The notes below the pieces were generated by a model. It was not told the origin of the DNA. It saw nothing but the letters and a program-made list of their open reading frames with translations, and did not search any database. This document shows, in pieces, positions 23,887 through 25,352 of a stretch of 64,000 nt of DNA (within the stretch, counting starts at the first letter, position 1; every line of letters begins with the position of its first letter). Source of the DNA: Phyllobacterium sp. OV277 (GTDB taxonomy: Bacteria; Pseudomonadota; Alphaproteobacteria; Rhizobiales; Rhizobiaceae); NCBI RefSeq assembly GCF_900104355.1, contig NZ_FNIY01000002.1, positions 186,001 through 250,000 of the forward strand, in the 5' to 3' direction. The translations under genes were made by a program, and so were the position numbers.

Positions 23887-24345
23887 TCAGACTTTCCACA
23901 CACCCGGTATCTGCCGGGTGGCGATGTTGAGACGGTTCCACACATTGACGTTGGCAATGGCCAGAACGAGGTCTCCGAGCTGCCTTTCATCGAAATGCTT
24001 TGCGGCTTCATTCCAGATGTCATCCGGTACCGGGTCGGATTTGTCGGCAACGCGGGTCACAGCTTCCGTCAACGCCAGCGCGGCACGCTCGGCATCGGAG
24101 AAATAAGGCGTATCGCGCCATGCCGAGACAGCAAAGAGGCGCTCATCGGTTTCGCCAGCCTTGCGGGCCATGCGTGGATGCATATCAACACAGACGCTGC
24201 AGCCATTGATCTGGCTGGCCCGCAAATGGACCAGTTCCAGCATACCTTTGGGGAACTCGCTCGTGCTGGTGGAAGCGGCGAGCGCCTGCAAGGCTTTCAT
24301 GGCTTCAGGATTGATCATTGCCGGGTTGCTCATACGTGCTTGCAT
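23887..24345 (-). CDS. Carboxymuconolactone decarboxylase (AhpD-like) family protein
   Basis: Small helical protein of 152 residues in the CMD/AhpD family. The redox-active motif is NGCSVCVDMHPRMARKAGE: CxxC with the conserved His three residues later, as in AhpD-type peroxidase adaptors. The start at 24345 has AGGAAAG upstream; a further ATG at 24360 is not better placed. It faces away from the ECF sigma-factor gene, the classic genome arrangement of ECF41-type sigma factors, and its promoter carries the same TGTCACA-N16-CGTC motif. A role in oxidant or quinone handling is inferred from the family. Confidence 0.9.
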   Translation of the reverse strand: MQARMSNPAMINPEAMKALQALAASTSTSEFPKGMLELVHLRASQINGCSVCVDMHPRMARKAGETDERLFAVSAWRDTPYFSDAERAALALTEAVTRVADKSDPVPDDIWNEAAKHFDERQLGDLVLAIANVNVWNRLNIATRQIPGVWKV

Positions 24346-24425
24346 TTTCTTTCCTCTCATTTTTCAGGGTCCGGTGTGTGCATAACCGGGCATTTGCTCT
24401 TGACGGTCCGGCGGCTCCGATTTCT

Positions 24426-24452
24426 TGTCACATCCGCCGGTTTTCGTTCGTC
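24426..24452 (+). promoter_or_regulatory. ECF41-type promoter for the sigma-factor gene
   Basis: TGTCACA (24426-24432), 16 bp, CGTC (24449-24452), identical to the promoter motif described for ECF41 sigma factors. Transcription would start near 24459, leaving a leader of about 30 nt before the ATG at 24489. Confidence 0.75.
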
Positions 24453-24460
24453 ATTGCTTT

Positions 24461-24487
24461 GACGGAACAGGATGAGGAAATGTGACA
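24461..24487 (-). promoter_or_regulatory. ECF41-type promoter for the CMD gene
   Basis: On the minus strand: TGTCACA (24487-24481), 16 bp, CGTC (24464-24461). It is the mirror image of the sigma-gene promoter, and the two -10 elements are only 8 bp apart. The CMD transcript would have a leader of about 110 nt. Confidence 0.75.
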
Positions 24488-24488
24488 G

Positions 24489-25352
24489 ATGAACGAGAAA
24501 AAATTTCTGGCAGAGCAATTCGAGGCCAATCGCACGCATTTGCGGCAGGTTGCCTACCGCATGCTGGGCTCCATGACCGAGGCCGAGGATGCGGTGCAGG
24601 AAGTGTGGCTGCGGCTCAACCGCGCGGAAATGGATGGTGTCGATAACCTTGGCGGGTGGCTGACAACCGTGATCTCCCGCATCTGTCTAGACATGCTGCG
24701 CGCGCGCAAATCCCGCCGTGAGGAACAACTGACCCCGCAAACGCCAGAACCGGTGGCCGGTGGCGACCCTGAACGCGATGTGGTGATGGCGGATTCAGTT
24801 GGTGCAGCGCTCTTGGTGGTTTTGGAGAAGCTGGCCCCGGCGGAGCGGCTGGCTTTCGTGCTGCACGATATGTTCGGCGTGTCCTTTGACGAGATCGCGC
24901 CCATTGTCGATCGCACGCCGGATGCGGCGCGGCAGCTTGCCAGCCGGGCACGGCGGCGGGTGCAGGGAACGGAGACCACGCCGGAACGCAATCTCGCCCG
25001 GCAGCGTGAAGTGGTAACTGCCTTTCTGGCCGCGTCGCGTGGCGGGGATTTCAGCACGCTTCTGGCGCTGCTTGATCCGGATGTGGTTTTCCGTGCCGAC
25101 AGTACTGCGGTGCAGATGGGCTCACTTGCGGAAATTCGTGGTGCCGAGGCTGTGGCCAATACATTCAAGGGACGAGCACAGGGCGCACTGCCAGCACTTG
25201 TCGATGGTGCGCTGGCTATTGTTGTCTCTATCCAAGGTCAGTTACGCGTGGTGCTAAACCTGACAATGATGGACGGAAAAATCACTGGCATCGAGGCTAT
25301 TGCCGATCCGGAACGCCTCGGTGGCTTCGATCTGGTGATGCTGGACAATTGA
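24489..25352 (+). CDS. ECF41/SigJ-like RNA polymerase sigma factor with SnoaL-like C-terminal domain
   Basis: Alternative sigma factor of 287 residues. Region 2 is HLRQVAYRMLGSMTEAEDAVQEVWLRL with VISRICLDMLRARKSRREE (about residues 17-80). Region 4 is LAPAERLAFVLHDMFGVSFDEIAPIVDRTPDAARQLASRARRRV (about 115-158). Residues 170-287 form a SnoaL/NTF2-like extension, which in ECF41 proteins replaces a separate anti-sigma factor. The conserved DGGGK of that extension is not seen; FRADSTAVQMGS stands in its place. No anti-sigma gene is adjacent. The gene is preceded by its own ECF41-type promoter, implying autoregulation, and is divergent from the CMD gene. Confidence 0.92.
   Translation: MNEKKFLAEQFEANRTHLRQVAYRMLGSMTEAEDAVQEVWLRLNRAEMDGVDNLGGWLTTVISRICLDMLRARKSRREEQLTPQTPEPVAGGDPERDVVMADSVGAALLVVLEKLAPAERLAFVLHDMFGVSFDEIAPIVDRTPDAARQLASRARRRVQGTETTPERNLARQREVVTAFLAASRGGDFSTLLALLDPDVVFRADSTAVQMGSLAEIRGAEAVANTFKGRAQGALPALVDGALAIVVSIQGQLRVVLNLTMMDGKITGIEAIADPERLGGFDLVMLDN

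Follow-up and report, generated by a model that had tools for sequence, protein, structure and literature searches.

Face-to-face ECF41 promoters joined by an 8-bp gap: a probable bidirectional promoter between a sigma factor gene and a CMD-type gene in Phyllobacterium sp. OV277

The 64,000-nucleotide stretch of Phyllobacterium sp. OV277 DNA analysed here (the window) raises the question of why two promoters for the same group of sigma factors should point toward each other over the same base pairs. Positions 24426-24487 read TGTCACA-N16-CGTC-N8-GACG-N16-TGTGACA, and lie between divergent genes for a CMD/AhpD-like protein with a CxxC motif and an ECF41-type sigma factor (Table 1). The 16-bp spacer is identical in length on both strands. 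The initial annotation had described an exact ECF41-type promoter half on each strand with identical spacing, and this description is accurate in sequence and coordinates; both halves are consensus, and each is aimed at its own gene. The pattern TGTCACA-N14..18-CGTC matches twice in the window, both times at the palindrome, against a mean of 0.10 in shuffled sequence, where two matches were reached in 1 of 100 shuffles. Genome-wide, the pattern matches seven times (the two here and five unpaired) compared with nine for a reversed control pattern, indicating that a lone match is uninformative and that the pairing is what counts.

Table 1. Coordinates of the genes and promoter elements, in window positions
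Feature	Position	Strand	Basis
CMD/AhpD-like protein with CxxC (CSVC)	23887..24345	-	CMD domain; start from orthologues L009-L011
Face-to-face ECF41 promoter pair, interrupted palindrome, 62 bp	24426..24487	.	sequence; geometry common to 108 of the 118 collection matches listed
-35 element TGTCACA, ECF-ward promoter	24426..24432	+	sequence; kept in 7/7 same-genus orthologues
-10 element CGTC, ECF-ward promoter; the +1 G predicted for the CMD-ward transcript is its last base read on the minus strand	24449..24452	+	sequence; S. meliloti start distance
8-bp gap ATTGCTTT, predicted shared discriminator of both promoters	24453..24460	.	length 8 in 108 of the 118 matches listed; inner 6 bp of about random identity between distant loci
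-10 element CGTC (GACG on +), CMD-ward promoter; includes, at 24461, the +1 G predicted for the ECF transcript	24461..24464	-	sequence; S. meliloti start distance
GAGGAA, likely to be the ECF gene's ribosome-binding site, within the CMD-ward promoter spacer	24474..24479	+	sequence
-35 element TGTCACA, CMD-ward promoter; follows the likely ECF Shine-Dalgarno and precedes the start codon	24481..24487	-	sequence; outer positions changed in 5/7 same-genus orthologues
ECF41-type (SigJ-like) sigma factor of 287 aa, extended at the C terminus by a SnoaL_2-like region	24489..25352	+	domain and structure-sequence matches

The sigma protein matches Pfam Sigma70_r2 and Sigma70_r4_2 above gathering and SnoaL_2 just below it (E 5e-5, 24.3 bits, gathering score 27), while the SigJ structure sequence 5xe7 covers residues 9-279 (E 8.9e-45). 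The presence of regions 2 and 4, the weak SnoaL_2 match and the SigJ alignment over residues 9-279 thus indicate an ECF41-type factor. The curated NCBIfam cut-offs for SigJ (263.8 vs 271) and SigX4 (228.8 vs 323.25) are missed; they delimit subfamilies rather than ECF41 as Wecke et al. defined it. A COE neighbour and a TGTCACA-N16-CGTC promoter, both characteristic of ECF41 loci, are found here, the adjoining protein having a CMD domain with CSVC. The CMD gene probably starts at 24345 rather than 24360, because the ATG at 24360 is absent in the orthologues L009-L011; the ATG at 24345 is preceded by a good ribosome-binding site. The same genome harbors a second ECF41-like gene (G000 contig C11, 80433-81805; L002) of 37% identity with a single TGTCACA-N16-CGTC about 500 bp upstream, and both sigma factors could therefore cross-activate.

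Among 39 genomes searched, 20 of them of the same genus (own included), a sigma orthologue was found in seven, with 68-100% identity. The initial annotation had named the loss of one motif in close relatives as evidence against paired promoters. All seven same-genus orthologues, the one from OV277 included, keep the ECF-ward TGTCACA-N16-CGTC, both -10 boxes and the 8-bp gap, but the CMD-ward -35 box is perfect in only two and has changed outer positions in the other five (TGTCACG twice, CGTCACG, GGTCACA and GTTCACA), leaving conservation complete in the one direction and partial in the other. All seven also keep CTTGACG (24399-24405; CGTCAAG on the minus strand, TTTGACG in L013) about 40-60 bp upstream of the CMD gene, at a distance of 16, 20 or 24 nt from the palindrome.

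The layout recurs far outside the genus. Contigs of a collection holding one genome per species were scanned with TGTCAC-N17-CGTC-N0..30-GACG-N17-GTGACA, which gave at least 118 matches. Among the 118 listed, the gap is 8 in 108, 9 in three and 13 in two, with 7, 11, 12, 24 and 30 occurring once each. Every one of the 108 listed gap-8 matches adjoins an ECF41-like or CMD gene, and an ECF or CMD gene also adjoins the matches with gaps of 9 (three), 11 and 12, making 113; the five listed matches with gaps of 7, 13, 13, 24 and 30 adjoin neither. ECF and CMD genes stand on opposite sides in 55 of the listed gap-8 loci, ECF and another frame in 46, and CMD and another frame in three; in the other four, which are close to an end of the examined stretch, one side has ECF or CMD and the other yielded no frame. 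By their record labels, which include several metagenome bins and may err, these 108 loci belong to Actinomycetota (68), Pseudomonadota (28), Acidobacteriota (6) and Myxococcota (2), with single loci in Armatimonadota, Cyanobacteriota, FCPU426 and Chloroflexota, or at least eight phyla in total. The partner genes of these loci vary in family and the promoter box remains unchanged: 50 of the 54 listed non-CMD side proteins, several of which are simply the longest frame on that side and make this an impure group, include 17 NAD(P)-binding/NmrA-like, four PNPOx, three DoxX_2 and two glyoxalase proteins. In L074, L078 and L079, the gap-8 palindrome has CMD on one side and a short frame unmatched to the sigma query on the other; an ECF41-like gene is present somewhere within the L074 locus, and none was obtained in L078 and L079.

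The listed gap-8 loci also share a compact arrangement on the sigma side. The purine-rich ribosome-binding region of the sigma gene sits inside the spacer of the partner-ward promoter, where Shine-Dalgarno-like four-base runs occur in 72 of 108 loci, compared with 7 of 108 on the partner side. With start codons chosen mechanically, the commonest offset places the start of the sigma frame 1 nt past the palindrome (40/108).

Searches that do not depend on the motif yield a similar picture among close homologs. A profile built from 18 ECF41 proteins matched 99 of 397 genomes of the same order. At a score of 300 bits or more there are 17 sigma matches, counting that of OV277 itself; the gap-8 layout is present in 15 of them, with 19-22 of 22 motif bases, and absent from L200 and L201. 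The 13 lower-scoring loci examined (L203-L215) have one strict promoter each and no mirror copy, with best mirror scores of 13-17 of 22. On plasmids, 12 loci were chosen among the 60 listed of 352 records with a match. The layout is present in all four Rhizobium plasmid loci (L223, L224, L225 and L227, the last being the same place as scan match L067), and the full layout in none of seven Streptomyces/Nonomuraea plasmid loci fetched by homology. Of these actinobacterial loci, L219 retains the CMD-ward promoter only and L222 the ECF-ward promoter only, and neither half was found in the other five, save one imperfect lone match in L220.

Back-to-back promoters take the place of the palindrome in the S. 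meliloti LMB1 plasmid locus. Separate back-to-back ECF41 promoters are found in L226 (with an annotated divergent CMD), L015 and L228, indicating that overlap is not required to drive a divergent ECF41 pair. These three loci resemble the palindrome in having the same sigma group, the same motif and two promoters aimed apart, but differ in that their adjacent -35 boxes are about 30 bp apart and their melted regions do not overlap. The exact-motif form of this layout, with 10-40 bp between the -35 boxes, occurs in 1 of 397 genomes of the same order; this is L228, where the consensus promoters lie about 100 bp from an ECF41-like gene (G405:C1). ECF42-like boxes in the face-to-face layout matched in 3 of 398 genomes, with gaps of 17, 19 and 23 and no preferred gap. 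A one-and-a-half-site pattern was discarded as a search tool, being too loose (153/397 genomes matched).

The gap is conserved in length and not in sequence. When gap-8 loci with sigma proteins of less than 50% identity are compared (2148 pairs), the inner 6 bp of the gap agree in 24% of positions compared with 27% expected from composition, so that identity is close to random between distant loci while the length stays. In the same pairs, the 16-bp spacers agree in 34-36% (27% expected) and the boxes in 98-100%, the latter figure being largely imposed by the search pattern.

A possible source of this fixed length is the position of the transcript starts. The ECF41 motif of S. meliloti lies 9 nt upstream of a mapped start (PMC3616915), and a printed sequence ends 9 nt past CGTC (PMC6180224). 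In 47 other strict ECF41-type promoters, base 8 after CGTC is a pyrimidine in 44 and base 9 a purine in 43, and GACG begins at base 9 in only three. This comparison set comprises all strict matches in 46 loci (none in three loci, two each in L015 and L180, three in L178), some of them probably chance matches inside genes that were retained in the count. In the palindromes, base 8 is a pyrimidine in 108 of 108 listed loci, and in 106 of 108 when read from the opposite strand; base 9 is the G of the opposite GACG by construction of the pattern. L170, which was found by homology, has an A at base 8. A purine directly follows CGTC in 106 of the 108 listed palindromic loci and in 11 of the 47 other promoters, which would be expected if the same base pair is also the -1 pyrimidine of the opposite start. 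Two genuine starts, each within the -10 box facing it, would demand such a pattern; the Fisher p value of 4e-23 overstates the case, because the rows in all counts are related by descent.

Based on the S. meliloti distance and the pyrimidine-purine step, the starts are predicted to lie 9 bp apart, at 24461 (+) and 24452 (-), where each would fall on the innermost base pair of the -10 box facing it. These positions are more likely than 24459 (+) and 24454 (-), near which the initial annotation had placed them. The sigma gene would then have a 28-nt leader and CMD one of about 107 nt. The stretch usually melted by RNA polymerase extends from -11 to +2; if so here, the two melted stretches would be 24450-24462 and 24451-24463, and thus almost identical. 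The gap-11 and gap-12 loci have a pyrimidine-purine step at bases 8/9 on both strands. In the three gap-9 loci, T-G stands at bases 9/10 of either strand, which would suit a start one base later. The pyrimidine-purine rule alone was rejected as the cause of the gap of 8, as gaps of 10 or more could satisfy it too.

Taken as a reading of sequence, the 62 bp are likely to be a bidirectional promoter of the ECF41 sigma factor that couples autoregulation to expression of the target. RNA polymerase with the ECF41 sigma factor would bind in either orientation, one at a time; rightward firing would transcribe the sigma gene, resulting in positive autoregulation, and leftward firing the CMD gene. Each transcript would begin at a G, 24461 or 24452, that pairs with the final C of the opposite CGTC, and the 12-13 bp melted in one open complex would be almost those melted in the other. 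With each predicted +1 G on the innermost position of the opposing -10 box, the 8 bp would serve both promoters; because they would be the -10 to +1 distance of both, a small indel would harm both starts, and the gap would have become locked after one old origin. The two -35 boxes would set the ratio of sigma factor to enzyme, and autoactivation would be capped by the sharing of one site.

The initial annotation had further held that only one of the promoters can be occupied at a time, giving a competitive or toggle-like split of transcription. Two RNA polymerases could hardly coexist on this DNA, an argument that is steric and leans on precedent from E. coli, where opposed polymerases at bidirectional promoters exclude each other and where, in five tested, competition appeared only as activity rose (PMC12825309). 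Since both directions match the consensus here, competition under full induction is plausible. The toggle part of the claim is not supported: the same sigma factor would act both ways, no repressor or mutual repression was seen at the locus, and lasting states are not expected because both directions would use one sigma factor.

Whether the geometry is itself the function, through the shared bubble or strict mutual exclusion, is a refinement of the bidirectional-promoter reading rather than its competitor, and appears somewhat unlikely. It would account for the retention of gap 8 across at least eight phyla with differing partner genes, and for the rarity of larger gaps among the matches listed even though gaps above 9 would permit independent starts. 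On the other hand, variants with gaps of 9, 11 and 12 exist, and the history of the locus offers another account. In a quick-search tree of 151 of the 184 sigma rows (short and near-identical rows dropped), 39 rows without the layout split from 112 rows with SH-aLRT support of 100; the larger side holds all 99 gap-8 rows, four rows with gaps of 9, 11 or 12, and nine rows without the layout, and layout versus none needs seven changes on the tree. One old origin with several losses is the simplest reading, and because the tree fits one origin and a few losses, history and the double constraint on the gap would suffice. A more ambitious proposal, that the palindrome represents a distinct ancient class of bidirectional promoter for alternative sigma factors, with a shared melted stretch, a start base in the opposite -10 box, and a geometry kept to fix the regulator:target ratio and cap autoregulation, can be put forward tentatively, at rather less than even confidence.

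It is quite unlikely that only the sigma-ward direction works, in autoregulation, with the mirror motif a relic or minor promoter and CMD driven from elsewhere. Such a scheme fits the altered CMD-ward -35 box in five of seven same-genus orthologues, the separate conserved stretch containing TTGACG some 40-60 bp upstream of CMD, and the lone ECF-ward promoter of L222. It sits badly with the CMD-ward -10 box and gap kept in all seven of these orthologues, with the retention of a pyrimidine at -1 of the partner-ward start by 106 of 108 listed distant loci, and with the lone CMD-ward promoter of L219. Moreover, the CMD gene is the sigma-dependent target in the two species tested by Wecke et al. 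(PMC3426412). A role as operator is highly improbable, in which a dimeric regulator, or free sigma factor dimerizing via its SnoaL_2-like domain, would bind the palindrome and the use of promoter boxes would be incidental: the dyad symmetry, the rigid length and an inner CGTCR-N6-YGACG resembling the inverted repeat of a dimer would suit it, but ECF41 promoters that have no mirror copy show the same boxes and 16-bp spacers, the start-site rule predicts the additional conserved bases, the partner genes vary, and no shared regulator gene was seen among the two flanking genes.

Two published systems come closest to the bidirectional promoter proposed here. In the available text of Wecke et al. 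(2012; PMC3426412), the motif precedes the ECF gene in 36 of 55 divergent ECF41 loci and the COE (CMD/oxidoreductase/epimerase) gene in 41, the COE genes are the only detectable targets apart from the sigma gene where it is cotranscribed, and ECF41-dependent activity is reported for the single promoters of ydfG (-10 TGTT) and RSP_0606 (-10 CGTC). The sigma group, the partner families and the promoter TGTCACA-N16-CGTC are alike, whereas the overlap, the palindrome and the fixed gap are not mentioned in that text. The presence of the motif before both divergent genes is thus already known, and the fixed overlap, the gap and the shared start bases appear to be new, none of them having been found in the part of the ECF41 literature that was searched.

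The bidirectional promoters compared from the literature serve the housekeeping sigma factor of E. coli (Warman, Grainger et al.; PMC12825309). These share pseudo-symmetry and the exclusion of opposed polymerases, which is a steric argument at the present locus; overlap of opposed elements, by which they are defined, is seen here in the sequence geometry. Their divergent starts are 10-23 bp apart, with small variations possible, and the closest class, at about 10 bp, compares with the 9 bp predicted here. The -10 element is the shared part in E. coli, whereas the ECF41 palindrome has separate -10 boxes and shares the stretch between them. The ECF41 element differs further in having consensus boxes on both sides, in recurring across phyla and, as proposed here, in being read by an alternative sigma factor that drives its own gene.

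For an alternative sigma factor, consensus-strength promoters of this kind, in which the gap is fixed, the bases drift and both start sites are predicted to the base at more than 100 loci, would offer a natural setting in which to test cleanly the effects of start-site spacing and of polymerase exclusion. As a simple cassette in which one sigma factor would fire itself and its target from one site, it could be useful for orthogonal circuits. Two of the Rhizobium plasmid loci (L223 and L224) have a possible third promoter, CMD-ward, that reuses the ECF-ward -35 box, this box being nearly its own reverse complement (TGTGACA-N16 or N15-CGTC), and that would leave a leader of roughly 20 nt ahead of the CMD start. 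Among the 108 listed gap-8 loci, CGTC occurs 32 times 8-27 nt outside the outer box on the partner side and never on the ECF side.
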